A DNA stretch of 64,000 bases from NCBI RefSeq assembly GCF_000312045.1, contig NZ_HE978634.1, forward strand, positions 2,406,380-2,470,379. The letters are read 5' to 3'. The stretch is from Noviherbaspirillum massiliense JC206. GTDB taxonomy: Bacteria; Pseudomonadota; Gammaproteobacteria; Burkholderiales; Burkholderiaceae_D. The notes below the pieces were generated by a model, which worked only from the letters and a program-made list of their open reading frames with translations, did no database searches and was not told the DNA's origin. This document shows, piece by piece, positions 11,127-20,692 of the stretch. The number at the start of each line of letters is the position of its first letter. Within the stretch, counting starts at the first letter, position 1. The translations under genes and the position numbers were made by a program.

Positions 11127-11804
11127 ATGTCAAACAAACTGGCCCTGGGCCTTATTCTGGGCCTGACCGCCGCCGGCGCAGTTGCCCAAACCTTCCCGAG
11201 CATTCAAGCCGATCCCGTTTCCAGCGCTTACCTGCAAGACTCACGCGGTGTCATTCTGCGCAGCGAGACCGGCCTGTGCTGGCGCACTGGGAGCTGGGCA
11301 TCAGCTGATGCAGCGCCCGGTTGCGACGGCGAACTGATTCCGCCGGTTGCAAAACCGACAGCCCCCGCAATCGTTGCGCCGCCACTGGCACAAATACCCG
11401 CTGCGCCCGCAGCTCCGAAGCGCTGCGACTTCACCGTGACTTTAAGCGGCGACCAGGCTTTCGCCTCCGGCAAGGCGGTCTTGAATCGTGCAGCGAAAAA
11501 GCGGCTTGACGAAGATGTCATCCCGGGCATTGCCGGCTGCAGGAAAGTGGAGGCCGTTCTCGTGACCGGCCATACCGACCATCTCGGCTCAAGGCAGCAG
11601 AATCAGCGCCTGTCGGAACAGCGTGCCAATGCGGTAGCCGCTTATCTGAAAGACAAAGGAATCACCGCGCCGGTCACCACCACCGGAGCAGGGCCTGCGC
11701 AGGCACTTTCTCAATGCAGCGGCAAGCGACCACGCTCAAAGCTGGTGGATTGCTTGGCACCGAATCGCCGGGTAGTCATCGAAATCCGCGGGATTTCCGG
11801 ATGA
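11127..11804 (+). CDS. OmpA-domain envelope protein, first of a tandem pair
   Basis: 225 residues: signal peptide (about 1-20, cleavage near AVA/QT), a short Cys-containing domain (SAYLQDSRGVILRS ... GLCWRTGSW ... GCDGE), a Pro/Ala linker and a C-terminal OmpA-like peptidoglycan-binding domain with VTGHTDHLGSRQQNQ, LSEQRANAVAAYL and a final APNRRVVIEI. There is no eight-stranded beta barrel, so it is a periplasmic or membrane-tethered peptidoglycan binder rather than a porin. It shares the same architecture with the gene at 12,098, consistent with tandem duplication, but is the more diverged copy. No gene symbol is assigned because barrel-less OmpA proteins are not orthologous to E. coli OmpA. 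Confidence 0.85.
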   Translation: MSNKLALGLILGLTAAGAVAQTFPSIQADPVSSAYLQDSRGVILRSETGLCWRTGSWASADAAPGCDGELIPPVAKPTAPAIVAPPLAQIPAAPAAPKRCDFTVTLSGDQAFASGKAVLNRAAKKRLDEDVIPGIAGCRKVEAVLVTGHTDHLGSRQQNQRLSEQRANAVAAYLKDKGITAPVTTTGAGPAQALSQCSGKRPRSKLVDCLAPNRRVVIEIRGISG

Positions 11805-11880: not shown

Positions 11881-12097
11881 CTAATTACAACAAAACGGGC
11901 TAAAAGGACGCAGCAGCATTTGGCGACATTCGCGCTAAATCAAGCATATGGCAAAATATAGTTAACAAATGAGCATTGCAAAGGAACAACCTCGTAAAAT
12001 GGCCATCTAACGGCGTGTAGTGATGTCTACATGAAATTTAGACAACCATTTTTTGTTGCGCAGTTCATCTGCGGATCTATCAACCAAGAGGAAAAAT

Positions 12098-12766
12098 ATG
12101 AATAACTTAGCAAAACTCATCTTTGCTGCGTCCGCAGTCGCTTCATTTTCTGCATCAGCACAGCAAGCCGTCCAGGCACCACCGAGCACCGCATACTTGA
12201 CGGACAGCCGCGGCGTTGTCGTGATGAGCGGATCCGGCAACTGCGTGCATAGTGGTTACTGGACTCCGGCCGATGCCACCGTTGTCGGCTGTGATGGCGT
12301 GGTAGCAAAAGCTCCGGCCCCGGTAGCAGCTCCGGCGCCTGCCGAACCGCCGCCTCCGCCCCCCGCTCCGGCCCCGGCTCCGACTTCCGAGAAGGTCTCG
12401 CTCTCCACGGATACCCTGTTCGATTTCGACAAGGCTGTCCTGAAGCCTGAGGGCAGGGAAAAGCTGGATGACCTCGTTTCCAGACTGCAAGGCATGAATC
12501 TGGAAGTGATCATTGCTGTCGGCCACACCGACTCCATCGGCTCGACGGCATACAACCAGAAACTGTCGATGCGCCGCGCAGAAGCGGTGAAGGCATACCT
12601 GGTATCCAAGGGTATCGAAGCCAACCGTGTCTACACCGAAGGCAAGGGTGAAAGCCAGCCGGTGAAAACCGATTGCAATCCGAAGCAGGCGCGCAAGCAA
12701 CTGATCGAGTGCCTGGCACCGAACCGTCGTGTCGAAGTTGAAGTCGTCGGCACCCGTACCCGGTAA
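12098..12766 (+). CDS. OmpA-domain envelope protein, second of a tandem pair
   Basis: 222 residues from the ATG at 12,098, which is preceded by AAGAGGAAAA; an upstream in-frame ATG at 12,053 lacks a signal-peptide context. Signal peptide (cleavage after ASA), the same Cys-containing N-terminal module as its neighbour (TAYLTDSRGVVVMS ... VGCDG), a Pro/Ala linker of about 25 residues, then an OmpA C-terminal domain with TLFDFDKAVLKPEGREKL, GHTDSIGSTAYNQ and LSMRRAEAVKAYL, which carries the Asp and Arg that bind diaminopimelate. A Cys pair near the C-terminus probably forms a disulfide. Followed by a strong terminator; upstream is a 293-bp AT-rich region that likely holds its promoter. Confidence 0.92.
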   Translation: MNNLAKLIFAASAVASFSASAQQAVQAPPSTAYLTDSRGVVVMSGSGNCVHSGYWTPADATVVGCDGVVAKAPAPVAAPAPAEPPPPPPAPAPAPTSEKVSLSTDTLFDFDKAVLKPEGREKLDDLVSRLQGMNLEVIIAVGHTDSIGSTAYNQKLSMRRAEAVKAYLVSKGIEANRVYTEGKGESQPVKTDCNPKQARKQLIECLAPNRRVEVEVVGTRTR

Positions 12767-12878: not shown

Positions 12879-13574
12879 ATGAATGCCGACCCATTAGAAC
12901 TTCAGAAATTCAGTGATCTTGCCCACCGCTGGTGGGACCCGACCTCCGAATTCCGCCCGCTTCATGAAATCAATCCATTGCGTCTGGAATGGATCAATTC
13001 GCGTGCTCCGCTGGAAGGAAAGACCGTAGCCGATATCGGTTGCGGCGGCGGCATACTTGCCGAATCGATGGCGAAAAAGGGAGCCGAGGTTACCGGGATC
13101 GACCTCTCGGAAAAGGCGCTGAAGGTTGCCGATCTTCATAGCCTGGAATCCGGAGTCCAGGTTCGATACGAGCTGATCTCGGCTGAGGAGCTGGCGGCAC
13201 GCGAGCCTGCCCGCTACGACGTCGTCACCTGCATGGAAATGCTGGAGCACGTGCCCGACCCCGCAGCGGTTGTAAAGGCTTGCGCAACCCTGGTGAAACC
13301 CGGTGGCCACGTCTTCTTTTCGACCATCAATCGCAATCCGAAGTCCTACCTGTTCGCCGTCATCGGTGCCGAATACCTGCTGCGCCTGCTGCCGAAGGGC
13401 ACGCATGACTATGCCAAGTTCATCACGCCCGCCGAACTTGCCCAATTCATCCGCAACGCCGGATTGACGCTCGATGCCCTCAAAGGCATGGGCTACAACC
13501 CGCTGACGAAAATGTATTCCCTGAACCGGGATACCGACGTCAATTACCTGGCCGCCTGCACCCGCCCGGCCTGA
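12879..13574 (+). CDS. ubiG: Ubiquinone biosynthesis O-methyltransferase
   Basis: SAM-dependent enzyme performing both O-methylations of ubiquinone synthesis. 231 residues; the N-terminus [11 protein letters not shown] and the SAM-binding motif DIGCGGGIL (52-60) are diagnostic, followed by [11 protein letters not shown] and [13 protein letters not shown]. Same strand as gph, the usual Burkholderiales order (ompA-ubiG-gph). A 16-bp hairpin separates it from gph. Confidence 0.96.
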
Positions 13575-13580
13575 TTTCTG

Positions 13581-13622
13581 CCTCTGCACGGCCTGCACAC
13601 GCAGGCCGTGCAGAGGCCTTTT
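13581..13622 (+). terminator. Strong hairpin between ubiG and gph
   Basis: Perfect 16-bp stem (13,581-13,596 with 13,601-13,616), loop ACAC, followed by CCTTTT. The short T run suggests a partial terminator, and the stem ends only 28 bp before the gph start, so it may set the ratio of gph to ubiG transcript. Confidence 0.7.
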
Positions 13623-13644
13623 GCAAGAACAACGACTGGATTTC

Positions 13645-14313
13645 ATGAAGCTGACTGCTCCCCGCGCCATACTCTTCGACCTTGACGGCACGCTGGCCGA
13701 TACTGCACCCGACCTGGCTGCAGCCGTCAACCAGTTGCGCGTTGCGCGCGGCCTCCCGGAAGCGCCTTACGAGTCCCTGCGGCCGGTCGCCTCTGCCGGC
13801 GCGCGCGGCCTGATCGGCGCCGCCTTCGGCCTCAAGCCGGGGGACGAGGAATATGAAACCCTGCGCGTCGCCTTCCTCAACAATTACGAAGCGGCGCTGG
13901 CTGTGAAAAGCCGGCTGTTCGACGGCATTCCCGAGCTTCTGCACAAACTGGAGGAAGCCGGCATGCAATGGGGGATCGTGACCAACAAGGCTGCGCGATT
14001 TACCGAACCGCTGGTGCCGCAAATCGGTCTGCTGCATGCGCGGTGCGTCATTTCCGGAGACACCACGCCGCATCCCAAGCCGCACCCGACGCCGCTGCTG
14101 GAAGCGGCGCGCCGCCTTGGCCTGCCGCCGGCCGACTGCTGGTATGTCGGCGACGATGTGCGCGACATCCAGGCAGGAAGCGCCGCCGGCATGCCGACGA
14201 TAGGCGCGGCGTGGGGCTATTGCGGCCATGCCGAACCGGTCACCTGGGGTGCCGACGCATTGGCCGAAACGCCGCGCCATCTGCTCGAACTGATCGCACA
14301 CGCCAGATCCTGA
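13645..14313 (+). CDS. gph: Phosphoglycolate phosphatase
   Basis: HAD-superfamily hydrolase that dephosphorylates 2-phosphoglycolate. From the ATG at 13,645 it has 222 residues with the nucleophile motif FDLDGTLADT (D12 and D14), motif II/III around WGIVTNKAARF and GDDVRDIQAGSAAGM. A TTG eight codons upstream overlaps the end of the upstream hairpin and is unlikely as a start. It lies directly after ubiG as in many betaproteobacteria. Confidence 0.93.
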   Translation: MKLTAPRAILFDLDGTLADTAPDLAAAVNQLRVARGLPEAPYESLRPVASAGARGLIGAAFGLKPGDEEYETLRVAFLNNYEAALAVKSRLFDGIPELLHKLEEAGMQWGIVTNKAARFTEPLVPQIGLLHARCVISGDTTPHPKPHPTPLLEAARRLGLPPADCWYVGDDVRDIQAGSAAGMPTIGAAWGYCGHAEPVTWGADALAETPRHLLELIAHARS

Positions 14314-14489
14314 GCCGTCATCTGGTCTGCATGCAGGGACTGGTCGCCAAGACTGCGGGCAGCGCGGACATGACGGTATAGCAAGAGAAGGAAACGTCGC
14401 CACATGACTAGCGCTGTGCCTGCCCGACAAGCTCGACGAAACAGCGGTTCCGGCAACGCGTCGTCGATTACGATGCGTTGCGCATTTTC

Positions 14490-15548
14490 TCAGGCAGTCA
14501 CTTCCACCCGGGCCGGGCCGTTCACCATTTCGCCGATGACCGCAGCATGCACGAAGCCTTCGCGCTTGAACAAGGCCAGCACTTCATCCACGGCGCTCGC
14601 CGCGCAAGAAACCAGCAGGCCGCCCGAGGTCTGGGGATCCGTCAGCAAGGCCTGCTGCACCGGGGTGATGCCATCGGCCAGCACAACCTCATGGCCGTAG
14701 CCCGCCCAGTTGCGGCCCGAGGCACCGGTGACGAAGCCACGCTCGGCGAACTGCTGCACATTCGGCAACAGCGGAATGCGCGGCATCTCCAGCCTCGCAG
14801 TCAGGCCGGCACCGCGGGCCAGTTCGAGCAGATGCCCAAGGAGTCCGAAGCCCGTCACATCCGTCAGCGCGTGAACGCCCGGCAGATCCGACAGTGACTT
14901 GCCGGGCTTGTTGAGTTTGGTGGTGTTTTCGATCATCGCCGCATAGCCGCTGGCATCGAGCGCATCCTTTTTCAATGCGGCGGACAGGATGCCGACGCCC
15001 AGCGGTTTTCCGAGGATGAACTTGTCGCCGGCGCGTGCATCCGCATTGCGCTTGACTTTCGACGGATGCACCAGGCCCATCACCACCAGGCCGTAGATCG
15101 GCTCGACCGAATCAATCGTATGGCCGCCGGCAATCGGGATGCCGGCTTCGGCGCAGACCGATTCGCCGCCCTGCAGGATCTTGCCGATCACGTCCAGCGG
15201 CAATTTGTTGATCGGCATGCCGACCAGCGCCAGCGCCATGATGGGCGTGCCACCCATCGCATACACATCCGAGATCGCATTGGTCGCGGCGATGCGGCCG
15301 AAATCGTAGGGATCGTCGACGATGGGCATGAAGAAATCGGTAGTCGCGATCAGCGCCTGTTCATCGTTCAGCTTGTAGACCGCCGCATCGTCGGCAGTCT
15401 CGATACCGACCATCAATTCCTTCGGCACCGGGAAGCCGCTCGATTTTTTCAGGATCTCGGCCAGCACGCCGGGCGCGATCTTGCAGCCACAGCCGCCGCC
15501 ATGGGAAAACGAAGTCAGCTTGATATTCAGGTCGGTTGGTGCATTCAT
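14490..15548 (-). CDS. selD: Selenide, water dikinase (selenophosphate synthetase; SenC role)
   Basis: Makes selenophosphate from selenide and ATP. 352 residues from the ATG at 15,548 (an ORF extension to 15,614 has no family counterpart). The catalytic motif reads SHGGGCGCK, with Cys20 and Lys23 in the positions of E. coli Cys17/Lys20; the Cys is encoded by a sense codon, so this is not a selenocysteine form. ADDAAVY, TDFFMPIVDDP, AGGHTIDS and LTDPQTSGGLL are all present. It lies 62 bp after senB on the same strand, so it probably supplies selenophosphate both to SenB (the SenC role of selenoneine clusters) and to SelU encoded at 17,981. Confidence 0.96.
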   Translation of the reverse strand: MNAPTDLNIKLTSFSHGGGCGCKIAPGVLAEILKKSSGFPVPKELMVGIETADDAAVYKLNDEQALIATTDFFMPIVDDPYDFGRIAATNAISDVYAMGGTPIMALALVGMPINKLPLDVIGKILQGGESVCAEAGIPIAGGHTIDSVEPIYGLVVMGLVHPSKVKRNADARAGDKFILGKPLGVGILSAALKKDALDASGYAAMIENTTKLNKPGKSLSDLPGVHALTDVTGFGLLGHLLELARGAGLTARLEMPRIPLLPNVQQFAERGFVTGASGRNWAGYGHEVVLADGITPVQQALLTDPQTSGGLLVSCAASAVDEVLALFKREGFVHAAVIGEMVNGPARVEVTA

Positions 15549-15610
15549 GTTGGCTTGTCGGTGTAAGACGAGGATGGGTGCGGGACCGTCGGCACGGATG
15601 CTGCTTGGGC

Positions 15611-16594
15611 TCAACGTGTTTTAGGGGCTAAATTATCCAACAATTGCAGCACTGCCGCTTGCTCGCGCTCGGGAGCAAACAGCGCCGCCCTCGCCTTGCA
15701 CTGGTCCTGGAGGAGCGCATGAAACGCCGAATCCGCCAGCGCCTTGTCGATCAGGGCAGCCAGTGCCTTGCTGTCGCCCACTGGGAAGTAGCCTGCGTAA
15801 TCCGCGCCCAGCATGCCACGGTTGCCCGGTATGTCGCTGGCCAGCACCGGCACGACGCTGGTGACGGCTTCGATGATGACATTCGCGCCTCCTTCGATTT
15901 TCGAGGCGATCACCATCAGCCGGCTGCGTCGCAGACGCTCCCGCGTGGCGTCATGCGGCAGGCTGCCAAGCCAGCGGTAATGCGGCACCGCCTGCTGTGT
16001 CGCCATGGCCTGTTCGCCCAGCGCCGGATCGAGCGCGCCGCCGATATGGGTCATGCGCAAACCGGGAGCTTTCACCATAGCAGCCGCATGCATGAAGACG
16101 AGCGGATCCTTTTCATCACGCAGATGGCCGATCATCACCACCTCGGCATCGCCGGGCTCGTGGCAGACGACGGGCGCGAGCGCTGGAGCGGACTGGTAAA
16201 TGACGCGAGCCTTGGCACGTCCCTCTTCAGGCAATTCCTGCAGGCCGGCTTCCTGCAGGACAACCAGGCGTGTCGCAAATTGCAGGGAACGCTGCGCTTC
16301 GGCATCGGCATGGATGTCGCGATACAGGTCGGTGCCGGTCAGGACCAGGATGCAGGGACGTTCGGGAAAGGCAGCGGCGAATGAAGCGATCGAGGAAGCC
16401 GAGCGCCGGGCGTGCAAGGCTATCACGGCGTCGCAGGCGATGCCGTTCCAGCGTTCAAGAAGCGTAACCCGGTAGCGTTCGCCGAGGAACCGCGCCCAGC
16501 GCCGGGCAGTCTGCCAGTTGCCATTGTTGGCTTTTGCCATGGCCGGGCTGATAATGACGACATGCCTTTTGGCCAACACTGCTTCTCCACGCAT
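15611..16594 (-). CDS. senB: Selenosugar synthase SenB (glycosyltransferase fold)
   Basis: GT4-like glycosyltransferase. In the described selenoneine pathway SenB joins selenophosphate-derived selenium to a UDP-sugar, giving a selenosugar for SenA. The N-terminal motif SPAMAKANNGNWQTARRW and the donor-site motif KIEGGANVIIEAV (EX7E type) fit the family. The assignment rests on these plus its place between selD and a divergent senA. The start is uncertain: ATG at 16,594 is used here; ATG 16,630 is possible, and GTG 16,579 or TTG 16,576 are better placed behind a GGAG. About 327 residues. No signal peptide or membrane segment, so cytoplasmic. Confidence 0.88.
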   Translation of the reverse strand: MRGEAVLAKRHVVIISPAMAKANNGNWQTARRWARFLGERYRVTLLERWNGIACDAVIALHARRSASSIASFAAAFPERPCILVLTGTDLYRDIHADAEAQRSLQFATRLVVLQEAGLQELPEEGRAKARVIYQSAPALAPVVCHEPGDAEVVMIGHLRDEKDPLVFMHAAAMVKAPGLRMTHIGGALDPALGEQAMATQQAVPHYRWLGSLPHDATRERLRRSRLMVIASKIEGGANVIIEAVTSVVPVLASDIPGNRGMLGADYAGYFPVGDSKALAALIDKALADSAFHALLQDQCKARAALFAPEREQAAVLQLLDNLAPKTR

Positions 16595-16664
16595 CTTTAG
16601 AGCGACTATCAAAATGCCGCTGGCGACCATGCGTCTTCTTGCCTTACCTCATGGACTGTCGACA

Positions 16665-16717
16665 CGCCTTGCCAGCGACCGCAAACCTGTCAGTTTGCCC
16701 ATTTTGCCAGACGCTCT
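16665..16717. repeat. Dispersed hairpin repeat, copy 1 (senB/senA intergenic)
   Basis: A 53-bp sequence matches 30,160-30,212 at 48 of 53 positions. It contains a hairpin (GCAAAC / GTTTGC). Weaker similarity extends upstream to about 16,636. It ends 25 bp before the senA start, so it lies in the senA leader or promoter. A looser relative sits at 37,059-37,108. Confidence 0.75.
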
Positions 16718-16741
16718 TGACACCATAGCCGGACAAAGCCG

Positions 16742-17929
16742 ATGAATTTTTCCTTTCGAAATGCCAACCGGCATGAACTTGCCGGCGCCCTGCAGGATGC
16801 GCGGGATTATACGCTTGCCCTGTTCAACTGCTTTGCCGAAGCCGGCCTGGACGATCCCGCCAAAGTGCCCAGGCTTTCCATCCTGAATCCGCCCTTGTGG
16901 GAGCTTGGCCATATCGCCTGGTTTGCGGAGTGGTACATCCTGCGGGAGGCGCGATCGAGCACACCGGATGCTGCGCAGCAGCCTTCCATGCTGACGAAAG
17001 GTGACGACTGGTTCGATTCGAACACGGTGGCGCATCGCGCGCGCTGGACCCTCGGTTTGCCATCCGCCGGCGCACTCAAGACTTATTGCCATGAAGTGCT
17101 CGACCGCGTGCTGGACAAATTGAACAGGACGGAACAAAGCGACGCAGCGCTGTATCCCTATCGCCTCGCGCTCGCACATGAAGACATGCATGGCGAAGCA
17201 TTCGCTTACACCTTGCAGACCCTCGGGCTGCCCCTGCCCCAGCGATTCCACGGTCGCGCGATCCGGCCCTGGGCCCAGGGCGAAATCCGCTTCGCCGGCG
17301 GCACCATCGAAATGGGCAGCCGGCCTGGGGAAGGATTCGTGTTCGACAATGAAAAATGGGCGCATGCAGTGTACGTCCCGCCTTTCGTGATGGATTCAAC
17401 CCTGGTGTCGAATGCGCAATACCGGGAATTCATCGCCGATGGCGGTTATCAGCGTCCCGAATTCTGGAGCACGGCCGGGCGCATCTGGCTGATGCGGCAG
17501 GAACGCTCTGCGCCCGAGGGCTGGCAGCGCGAAGACCATGCCTGGCGCGCCTGGCGCTTCGGCAGACCGGTGGTGCTGACTCCACTGGAACCGGTGCGGC
17601 ACGTCAGCTTGTATGAAGCGCAAGCCTATTGCCAGTGGGCCGGTCGCCGGCTGCCGACCGAAGCCGAATGGGAGTATGCGGCCCTGTCCGGCCATCCCGC
17701 CTTGCGCTGGGGCGATTTGTGGGAATGGACCTGCACCCCGTTCGAGCCCTATCCCGGCTTCGCGCCCGATGCTTACCGGGAATACTCCAAGCCGTATTTC
17801 CAGACCCATCAGGCGGTGCGGGGCGCCTCGTTTGCCACTCGGCTGCGCCTGCAGTCACCGAAATTCCGCAACTTTTATCTGCCCGAACGGGATGACCTGT
17901 TCATCGGTTTCCGCACCTGCGCGCTGTGA
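16742..17929 (+). CDS. senA: Selenoneine synthase SenA (EgtB-like nonheme iron enzyme)
   Basis: 395 residues with the EgtB layout: an N-terminal DinB-like helical domain (about 1-165) and a C-terminal formylglycine-enzyme/sulfatase-modifying-factor fold (about 185-395). The putative iron ligands are H57 (ELGHIAWF) and H146/H150 (AHEDMHGE, HXXXH). In the C-terminal domain PTEAEWEYA and DLWEWTC are typical. The known reaction attaches selenium from a selenosugar to hercynine, then C-Se cleavage yields selenoneine. EgtB of ergothioneine synthesis is the alternative, but the neighbours senB and selD favour SenA. No hercynine-forming EgtD is in the window, so hercynine must come from elsewhere in the genome or from uptake. 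Confidence 0.88.
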   Translation: MNFSFRNANRHELAGALQDARDYTLALFNCFAEAGLDDPAKVPRLSILNPPLWELGHIAWFAEWYILREARSSTPDAAQQPSMLTKGDDWFDSNTVAHRARWTLGLPSAGALKTYCHEVLDRVLDKLNRTEQSDAALYPYRLALAHEDMHGEAFAYTLQTLGLPLPQRFHGRAIRPWAQGEIRFAGGTIEMGSRPGEGFVFDNEKWAHAVYVPPFVMDSTLVSNAQYREFIADGGYQRPEFWSTAGRIWLMRQERSAPEGWQREDHAWRAWRFGRPVVLTPLEPVRHVSLYEAQAYCQWAGRRLPTEAEWEYAALSGHPALRWGDLWEWTCTPFEPYPGFAPDAYREYSKPYFQTHQAVRGASFATRLRLQSPKFRNFYLPERDDLFIGFRTCAL

Positions 17930-17980
17930 CTGCGCGGCCTTTTGCGGTGCCGCCGGCTGGAAAGAACGTACAATGTGCGC

Positions 17981-19090
17981 ATGTACGATTTCCATTCTTA
18001 TGACTTGATCATCGATGCGCGCAGCCCGCGCGAATTCGAAGAAGATCATATTCCCGGCGCGGTCAATCTGCCGGTCGTCGACAATGAAGAATATGCCGAG
18101 GTCGGGACGCTGCACCGTACCGACCCGATGGGCGCCTACCTCATTGGCGTGCAGTATTCATTGAAGAACATCGCACGCCACCTCGACGAATATGTTTCGC
18201 AATATGGCCGGAAAAGCAAAATCCTGGTGTACTGCTTCCGCGGCGGCAAGCGCAGCCGGCTCTGGTTCGATGCGCTCGATACCATCGGCTACCGCGTCGA
18301 AAAACTGAAAGGCGGCTGGAAAGGCTATCGCCGCTGGGTCAATGATCAATTGCAGACTGCTCCCGGTGATTACCGCTATCTCGTGCTCTCCGGCCCCACC
18401 GGCTGCGGCAAGACGCGCGTGCTGACCGCATTGGAAAAAGCAGGCGCGCAGGTGCTGGACCTCGAAGGCATTGCAGTGCACCGCGGTTCGGTAATCGGCG
18501 CGGTTCCGGGCAGGGAGCAGCCGACCCAGAAACTGTTCGACAGCCAGTTGCTGCAGCGGCTGAGGGAATTCGATCCGGCCAAACCCGTCTGGATCGAAGC
18601 CGAGAGCAAGAAGATCGGCAATGTCCAGTTGCCGGATGCGCTCTTGGCCGGCATGCGCAAGGGCGTGACGATTGCCGTCGATGCACCGATGCCGCAACGG
18701 GTGCTGTTGTGGCGCGAGGATTATCGCCATTTCGAGGAAGACCCGGAAGCGCTGATCGGGCGACTGTCCCACCTGCGCTCGCTGGTCGGCGGCGAAGAGT
18801 TTGCCGAGTGGGAGAAGCTGGCGCAAGCCCGGCAAGTGGTGGAACTGTTCGAACGCCTGATGCGCAAGCATTACGACCCTGCATACCGGCGCTCGATCCT
18901 GCGCAACTATCCGGCGATTGATTCTTCGCCGAAGGTCGTTCTGGAAGACCTCTCCGCAGACGCCTTGTTGCCGGTGGCGCAACGCATGCGCTCGGAGTTC
19001 GAGACGGCTATGCCCCCCGCATGTACCGATGCACCTGGCGAGTCCGGCGCACTCGTCATCGAGGGACAGTCAAGCGCCCGACCGGCTTGA
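17981..19090 (+). CDS. selU: tRNA 2-selenouridine synthase
   Basis: Also called MnmH/YbbB. Replaces sulfur by selenium in 2-thiouridine at the wobble position of Lys, Glu and Gln tRNAs, via geranylation. From the ATG at 17,981 it has 369 residues: N-terminal rhodanese domain with catalytic C85 (LVYCFRGGK), then a P-loop domain with GPTGCGKT (138-145). A TTG start 13 codons upstream is less likely. It starts 51 bp after senA, so senA-selU are probably one transcript using selenophosphate from SelD. The last 35 bp overlap the convergent gene at 19,056. Confidence 0.95.
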   Translation: MYDFHSYDLIIDARSPREFEEDHIPGAVNLPVVDNEEYAEVGTLHRTDPMGAYLIGVQYSLKNIARHLDEYVSQYGRKSKILVYCFRGGKRSRLWFDALDTIGYRVEKLKGGWKGYRRWVNDQLQTAPGDYRYLVLSGPTGCGKTRVLTALEKAGAQVLDLEGIAVHRGSVIGAVPGREQPTQKLFDSQLLQRLREFDPAKPVWIEAESKKIGNVQLPDALLAGMRKGVTIAVDAPMPQRVLLWREDYRHFEEDPEALIGRLSHLRSLVGGEEFAEWEKLAQARQVVELFERLMRKHYDPAYRRSILRNYPAIDSSPKVVLEDLSADALLPVAQRMRSEFETAMPPACTDAPGESGALVIEGQSSARPA

Positions 19091-19655
19091 GCGTGCCGTC
19101 CTTCTGAGCCGACACGATCACCATTTCACCGGCACCGGGTGAAATGCCGGTCAGCGTGCGGATGTTCACATTGTGGGTCACCCAGATTCGATTGCCCGCA
19201 GCCGGCCTCTCTCGTGCGGCGGCGGATACGGCGCGGACCTTTGCCTGGATGCGATCGTCGTCATCATCGAACATGGAATCGAGCATGGCAGCCGGCCTGG
19301 CCGTACCGAAAGCGAGCCGGGCCGTGTCGATGCACCGGCACCAGCGGCTCGACAGCACGTCGGCAACCGGAATCCGCTGCTTGCGGAAGGCTTCGCCGAG
19401 GCGTTGCGCATGGCTGCGTCCCTCGGCCGAGAGATTGCGCTGCGTGCTGCAGTTGTCCAGAACGAATCCAGGCGGATCGCCGGTTCCGGGTTCCGTCTCG
19501 GCATGCCGAATCAGCACGATATAGCCGCCGGACTGCAAGGCGGACCACAGCGATTCGTTGGAAGCCGTGTCGGCAGCATGCACGGCTTGCGATACCAGCA
19601 GCATGGCAAGCGCAAAGAGCCGCACCGCATGCCGAATCAGATGGTCAGGTTTCAT
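19056..19655 (-). CDS. Periplasmic histidine phosphatase family protein
   Basis: 199 residues with a signal peptide (about 1-27, ending VHA/AD) and the phosphohistidine motif LIRHAETEPG of the phosphoglycerate-mutase-like superfamily; a second His occurs in WVTHNVNI. The enclosed CSTQRNLS and SSRWCRC segments match exported members of this family. The substrate is not known. It ends inside the 3' end of selU (35-bp tail-to-tail overlap). Confidence 0.85.
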   Translation of the reverse strand: MKPDHLIRHAVRLFALAMLLVSQAVHAADTASNESLWSALQSGGYIVLIRHAETEPGTGDPPGFVLDNCSTQRNLSAEGRSHAQRLGEAFRKQRIPVADVLSSRWCRCIDTARLAFGTARPAAMLDSMFDDDDDRIQAKVRAVSAAARERPAAGNRIWVTHNVNIRTLTGISPGAGEMVIVSAQKDGTLKPVGRLTVPR

Positions 19656-19687
19656 GCTCTCGAGCCCGGACTAAAGCATTTGCAGGA

Positions 19688-20692
19688 TCAGCGCTTGTCC
19701 CAGAACGCCGCCATTCGCTTTCGCATGGCTTCATCCGGCAGCACGCCCAGGCCGGCGCGGCAATTCTCCTGCATGTGCTGCGGGCGGCTGGTGCCGGGAA
19801 TGGCGCAGGTGACGGCCGGATGGCTGACTACATACTTCAGCAGGATTTGCGCCCAGCTTTCGCAACCGATGTCGCCCGCCCATGGCGGCAGCGGCGCCTG
19901 GGCCAACCGGCGCAGCAAGCCGCCGCCGCCGAAAGGCTGGTTCACCAGCACCGCAATGCCGCGGTCGGCGGCAAGCGGCAGCAGGCTGCGCTCGGCCTCG
20001 CGCTCATCGAGTGAATAATTCAGCTGGACGAAATCCAGCTGCTCGTTGCGCATGATGGCTTCGAGCTCATCGTAGGCGCTGGCCGTGTAATGGGTAATGC
20101 CGAGATAGCGGATGCGCCCTTCTTCCTTCCACGCGCGCAGCGTCTGCAAGTGAGTGCGCCAGTCGATGAGGTTATGGATCTGCATCAGTTCGATGCGAGG
20201 ATCCTGCAGCAGGCGCATCGATTCCTGCATCTGCCGGATCCCTTCCTGCCGGCCGCGGGTCCATACCTTGGTGGCGACGAAGGCCTTGTCATGCGCCTTC
20301 AGCTCCGTCAGCAAATCGCCCACCACCGCTTCCGAACGGCCGTACATCGGTGAACTGTCGATCACCGACCCGCCGGAAGCAAACAGGATGCGCAACACGT
20401 CCAGCAAGGGTGCGCGCTCTTCCTGACCCGGCCCCACGTCGAAAGTCTGCCAGGTGCCGCAGCCGATGACGGCCAGGAGTTCACCGCTCGACGGAATGGC
20501 GCGTGTGTGCATGCGTTCGCTCCTGCCGGGCTCAGGGTTTGGCCCCGAAACCGCTTGCGTCGTGCCGCCAAAGCTCAGCGTGACGGCGGTGGCCATTGCA
20601 AGCCGCAGGAATTCGGCGCGGCTCATTGCATTGCCTGCCGCATGGAGGCGACGTGCGCCCCCGTCCTGATGCTGATGGGTACCCTGTCTCAT
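19688..20692 (-). CDS. Aldo/keto reductase with N-terminal export-like segment
   Basis: 334 residues. The first 50 include SRAEFLRLAMATAVTLSFGG, which resembles a twin-arginine signal but lacks the second Arg; the rest is a TIM-barrel aldo/keto reductase (GCGTW, VIDSSPMYGRSE, catalytic-type Asp/Tyr, then FVATKVWTRGR with Lys, and IPGTSRPQHMQEN in the cofactor region). The start at 20,692 is firm: ATG follows directly the stop of the upstream transporter and has AGGAGG eight bases before it. The enzyme may be exported folded with NADPH, but whether the imperfect motif works is uncertain. Substrate unknown. Confidence 0.85.
   Translation of the reverse strand: MRQGTHQHQDGGARRLHAAGNAMSRAEFLRLAMATAVTLSFGGTTQAVSGPNPEPGRSERMHTRAIPSSGELLAVIGCGTWQTFDVGPGQEERAPLLDVLRILFASGGSVIDSSPMYGRSEAVVGDLLTELKAHDKAFVATKVWTRGRQEGIRQMQESMRLLQDPRIELMQIHNLIDWRTHLQTLRAWKEEGRIRYLGITHYTASAYDELEAIMRNEQLDFVQLNYSLDEREAERSLLPLAADRGIAVLVNQPFGGGGLLRRLAQAPLPPWAGDIGCESWAQILLKYVVSHPAVTCAIPGTSRPQHMQENCRAGLGVLPDEAMRKRMAAFWDKR

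Follow-up and report, generated by a model that had tools for sequence, protein, structure and literature searches.

A four-gene selenium locus

Positions 14490-19090 of a 64,000-nucleotide stretch of the Noviherbaspirillum massiliense JC206 genome (the whole stretch is called the window) hold two diverging gene pairs for selenium metabolism: senB and selD are read from the minus strand, senA and selU from the plus strand. Most probably the block works as a selenoneine (sen) cluster that is linked to a gene for tRNA selenouridine formation. On the minus strand selD, which takes the senC role, encodes a Cys-type selenophosphate synthetase of 352 amino acids (14490..15548); a longer open reading frame (ORF) reaching 15614 begins at TTG and the ATG start was preferred. 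The gene of the selenosugar synthase, senB (15611..16594, 327 amino acids), lies 62 bp upstream of selD on the same strand. According to the gene coordinates, 147 bp of divergent intergenic DNA (16595..16741) separate its start from that of senA (16742..17929), which codes for the selenoneine synthase of 395 amino acids. Following senA on the plus strand after 51 bp is selU/mnmH (17981..19090, 369 amino acids), a tRNA 2-selenouridine synthase gene of a plasmid-associated lineage. Its ORF was listed from 17942, where it begins at TTG; the start at 17981 was used. The enzymes and the pathway are already known; what is rare is their arrangement in a block of four genes.

In a profile search each product scored above the cut-off of its own NCBIfam model: SenB 436.8 bits against TIGR04348 (cut-off 300), SelD 436.7 bits against TIGR00476 (cut-off 125), MnmH/SelU 321.4 bits against TIGR03167 (cut-off 219.75), and SenA as detailed below. 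This confirmed the selenium block as it had been described in the initial annotation, which was made from the DNA letters and an ORF list. The motifs named there were located, i.e. NNGNWQTARRW in SenB, H57 and HXXXH (H146/H150) in SenA, and the Cys of SelD in GGGCGCK. The designation 'complete selenium island' was appropriate for selD/senC, senB, senA and selU, all of which are in the block; it does not extend to egtD, which is located elsewhere in the genome.

Key residues are in place. SenB is 55% identical to the aligned part of PDB 8k5u and has equivalents of N20, T23, K158 and E231, counted along the 8k5u chain; this residue list was taken from PMC10891094, according to which mutation of these residues reduces or abolishes activity. 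The SenB motif EGGAHV reads EGGANV in the window protein. Alignment of SelD with the SelD chain of PDB 3u0o showed that the GCGCK loop is kept, with Cys and Lys in GGGCGCK. SelU shares 28% overall identity with E. coli SelU, to which its rhodanese Cys85 can be aligned, and contains the Walker A motif GPTGCGKT; the domains of SelU are described in PMC9105526.

SenA groups with selenoneine synthases

SenA scored 526.8 bits against the SenA model NF041186, 107 bits above the cut-off of 420, and 277.1 bits against the EgtB model TIGR03440, below the cut-off of 360. Thus the SenB model recognized the product of 15611-16594, and that of 16742-17929 was recognized by the SenA model and not by the EgtB model. 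The triad H57, H146 and H150 is present in the alignment and, by analogy with the EgtB and SenA families, would bind iron. In a FastTree tree of 172 proteins a single branch with a support of 100 split 140 SenA rows, including the solved 8ryz, from 32 EgtB rows. An IQ-TREE tree of 54 rows, picked from the FastTree set with three rows added, separated 40 SenA rows, again with 8ryz, and one OvsA from 13 EgtB rows (support 100/99); the EgtB of this genome and the solved 4x8b are on the EgtB side. Each row had been labelled according to whichever of two tblastn queries matched it better, which builds part of the split into the data; this does not apply to the positions of the solved chains. IQ-TREE issued a long-branch warning for several rows including 4x8b and OvsA, the positions of which are unsure. 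Among 48 SenA loci of the order draw, best-segment identity to the window SenA was 35-68%.

Grouping of the protein at 16742 with the EgtBs of thiol pathways, which the initial annotation had considered, occurred in neither tree. An EgtB-type sulfoxide synthase that makes ergothioneine and has selenium genes as incidental neighbours would belong to the same superfamily, and the EgtB model does give a considerable score. This score misses the cut-off, however, both trees place the protein with the SenAs, senA adjoins senB, and another protein of the genome, encoded next to egtD, satisfies the EgtB model. The EgtB assignment was rejected, and ergothioneine formation by the window protein appears very improbable.

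Hercynine and selenophosphate supply

Because no egtD is in the window, the initial annotation had asked where the precursor hercynine comes from. An egtD gene is present at G000:C1:1163572, on the contig that also carries senA and at a distance of about 1.26 Mb from it (TIGR03438, 377.3 bits versus a cut-off of 290.9). The Pfam model PF10017, which detects the gene, was also above its cut-off in two of 14 control genomes and the name egtD hence rests on TIGR03438. The next protein after egtD scored 575.8 bits against TIGR03440 (cut-off 360). Given egtD and an adjoining EgtB, ergothioneine is probably formed too, and hercynine would be common to both pathways.

A genome search at E up to 1e-40 identified one SelD only and no match to SelA. 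Selenocysteine as a third use of selenophosphate was rejected on the basis of this missing SelA match. SenB and SelU are therefore the known outlets for selenophosphate, which supports the earlier proposal that one supply feeds a small molecule and tRNA. The gene set as such is common: 55 of 145 family genomes have all four genes, 18 of these 55 together with SelA, and the idea that the four-gene set is unusual was discarded. As a caution on these counts, SenA-positive family genomes number 70 (73 matches) among the matches listed and 71 in the overall tally. The family scan misses some SenAs: in G288 a SenA beside senB was found by tblastn (L283) and is not among the listed matches, and the SenA of G141 scored 408.5 bits, slightly under the NF041186 cut-off. 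In two further loci, L282 (G292) and L284 (G250), senB-selD stands near egtB-egtD without an adjacent senA; among the listed matches over cut-off G292 has no SenA and G250 has one, on another contig.

The linkage of senA and selU is rare

The rare part is the physical linkage of senA and selU, not the possession of all four genes. Start-to-start distances within 6 kb were seen in two of the 67 family genomes that have both genes, this genome and G219; the two genes share a contig in 18 of the 67, and those on different contigs were counted as unlinked. Within the genus 15 genomes were searched. Thirteen had senA and selU and the same two had them close together (by-eye reading). A tblastn search of the 48 SenA loci from the order draw, with flanks of up to 8 kb of which several stopped at contig ends, found no selU. 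Of the named SenA loci, at least 593 in number, the best 80 were compared, some of them with short flanks; one carries selU, L249 of Noviherbaspirillum humi, which by its match values was taken as the same locus as G219 and counted once. As a side observation, two other genomes of the genus, G322 and G340, have senA and selU on one contig at a distance of about 31 kb (by-eye reading), which might point to an older or dispersed block.

For selD and senB, 56 of the 60 family genomes with both have them no more than 6 kb apart. The corresponding selD-selU proximity was found in 4/55 genomes with senA and senB, in 24/52 with neither, in 9/11 with senA but no senB, and in 0/3 with senB and no listed senA. 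Operons of selD with ybbB or selB, seldom with both, are described in PMC2432076. Three other loci of the genus (L266, L269, L271) have SelU and SelD in divergent orientation with 0.2 to 4.7 kb between them. Hence, the window order can be read as a placement of senA and senB in the gap between SelU and SelD, or as a loss of senA and senB from this gap elsewhere.

The window SelU differs in type from most SelUs of the family. A careful tree built from 50 SelU proteins places it in a clade of 13 rows (support 100/100) consisting of the window SelU, six other rows of the genus, three other family members and three plasmid rows, from Polaromonas (L292), Massilia (L293) and Paraburkholderia (L294). 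The other side has 37 rows, including one genus member (L260). The 50 proteins were drawn from 76 (73 plus the three plasmid proteins), and the very divergent L288 and L289 are among those omitted. A plasmid search for SelU returned 21 records, five of them at 60-80% identity; the same search for SenA returned 36 records, all below 60% identity. On the four plasmids inspected (L292-L295) the neighbours of selU include a fatty acid desaturase and an autoinducer-binding protein, and genes for conjugation or type IV secretion are found nearby; neither the desaturase nor the autoinducer-binding protein was among nine window proteins scanned. The SelU lineage has probably moved between plasmid and chromosome.

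Proposed selenium flow and alternatives

By analogy with characterised homologues the following route is proposed. SelD would form selenophosphate, SenB would transfer its selenium to a UDP-sugar to yield a selenosugar, and SenA, as an iron enzyme, would couple the selenosugar with hercynine to selenoneine. Hercynine would be supplied by EgtD, encoded 1.26 Mb away, and would also feed the separate EgtB. SelU would spend the same selenophosphate to replace sulfur by selenium in 2-thiouridine at the tRNA wobble position. The steps of the selenoneine pathway are described in PMC9814287 and PMC10702425. The intergenic region of 147 bp likely holds promoters. Because senB-selD and senA-selU diverge from this one short region, joint expression is plausible.

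Several observations weigh against this reading, and they concern the product and the linkage. With respect to the product, a pass of the SenA model is no proof of function since iron-less relatives pass as well. Furthermore, the solved OvsA of the ovoselenol pathway is nested among the SenA rows of the IQ-TREE tree, on a long branch, so that the tree alone does not separate a selenoneine from an ovoselenol product. The cluster might thus yield another selenosugar-derived compound such as ovoselenol. Ovoselenol requires a methyltransferase. The best match in the genome to the OvoA-type methyltransferase model TIGR04345 was 28.2 bits (cut-off 170), although an unrelated methyltransferase could serve. 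Considering also the large margin of SenA over NF041186 and the presence of EgtD, such a product is improbable, hardly less so than ergothioneine formation, and selenoneine remains the expected product.

With respect to the linkage, 65 of the 67 family genomes with both senA and selU do not have them close together (within 6 kb), so a shared supply does not depend on it. A promoter scan gave a sole match, at 16527-16555 inside senB, one found versus 1.1 expected by chance. Possibly selU came to lie beside senA through an accident of rearrangement, has a promoter of its own, and the two pathways are uncoordinated. The rarity of close linkage in the family and in the genus (2/13), the approximately 2 kb between senA and selU in the second case and a promoter signal not above chance are in line with an accident. 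On the other side, both genes are on the same strand, 51 bp apart, the terminator scan listed no site between them, and SelU and SelD are near each other in the three genus loci mentioned above. An accident has a chance only a little short of even. The locus offers a natural case of one selenophosphate synthetase, in a genome without a selenocysteine synthase match, with two probable competing outlets. The partition of selenium between a small-molecule antioxidant and tRNA thereby becomes testable by single-gene deletions.

SenA relatives without the iron ligands

The window SenA is of the kind with an intact triad. Among the 73 listed family matches over cut-off all 54 SenAs encoded next to senB keep the triad. 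In genomes without a senB match 13 of 13 SenAs have another letter at one or more triad places; the 13 include a shorter ORF of 329 amino acids which in addition is gapped at the first place. Six SenAs are from genomes with senB elsewhere: two are intact, three have losses, and one short ORF is gapped at the first place with the other two kept. Taken together, 16 of the 19 SenAs away from senB have triad losses, 16/73 of all matches. In the 140-row set 96 senB-adjacent rows keep the triad and a further two are gapped at the first place; of the 41 non-adjacent rows 28 have lost at least one His and 13 keep all. These 13 intact rows, 11 of them from other families, speak against a strict senB rule. 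The tree requires four changes, and an independent-pairs test of senB absence versus triad loss had three pairs in agreement and none opposed (p 0.25). With only three pairs and this p value the link between senB and the triad could still reflect shared ancestry.

Full-length iron-less SenAs, with one or more of the triad histidines replaced, were seen near egtD-egtB (L181, L182, L183, L193, L206, L257, L262, L265, L270), beside selD with no senB in the stretch examined (L220, L222, L225, L229, L231, L238, L239, L241-L243, L250) and in L274-L276. Median dN/dS was 0.137 for iron-less genes (47 pairs, 0.053-0.269) and 0.281 for senB-adjacent genes (597 pairs, 0.028-0.964); the pairs overlap and are not independent. 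The low ratios argue that the iron-less genes are probably under purifying selection and are not decaying pseudogenes. Four iron-less proteins (from L182, L222, L265 and L274) pass the SenA model at 467-503 bits. Since the profile counts such proteins as selenoneine synthases, surveys of producers should also check senB and the triad.

A wider, tentative view, to which we give slightly less than an even chance, combines these data. The window would represent the intact state, and SenAs of relatives that have no senB, or that are second copies near egtD-egtB, would repeatedly lose their iron ligands and yet stay under purifying selection. Iron-free SenA may then have acquired a new, non-oxygenase role, for example by assisting or regulating EgtB or by binding hercynine, selenoneine or ergothioneine. 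In the window, the junction of senA with a SelU of plasmid lineage would tie the allocation of selenium to antioxidant or tRNA to one locus.

Surroundings of the block

Base composition gives no sign of a recent transfer of the block: GC3 of its four genes is 0.72-0.79 compared with 0.70-0.81 in seven neighbours. Within 14200-19400 five terminator-like sites were found, 4.4 being expected by chance. A weak candidate is an inverted repeat with a 12-pair stem at 14453..14481 (plus strand), between the convergent gph and selD. An RNA family search of 13000-20000 had a single match, far under the threshold of its family. When 14 window neighbours were used as gene-order markers in 49 loci, none was found except a small phosphatase and, once, an aldo/keto-reductase relative. 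This small protein of the histidine-phosphatase family is beside selU in the window (19056-19655) and beside selD in three relatives (L178 5331-5918, L264 6589-7140, L269 10013-10570; best-segment identity 50-52%). Between gyrA and ubiG the window codes for two neighbouring proteins with alike C-terminal sequences, OmpA-like by eye (11127-11804 and 12053-12766).

Comparison with known systems

The literature titles and abstract openings inspected named neither selU in a sen cluster nor an iron-less SenA, which is no proof of absence from print. The cluster of senA, senB and senC/selD in Variovorax paradoxus has been described (PMC9814287, PMC10891094). The window has the same three enzyme families, and residues 14-394 of its SenA align with the solved SenA chains 8ryz and 8k5i. 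It differs from Variovorax in that selU follows senA on the same strand and egtD is far off. The window is similar to known loci encoding SelD and SelU together in that both are joined at one locus; it differs because senB and senA are in between and SelU is of the plasmid-associated lineage. The closest counterpart is the locus of N. humi. There, SelD, SenB, SenA and SelU are within about 6.3 kb in the order and orientation of the window, yet approximately 2 kb of other sequence separate senA from selU compared to 51 bp in N. massiliense.

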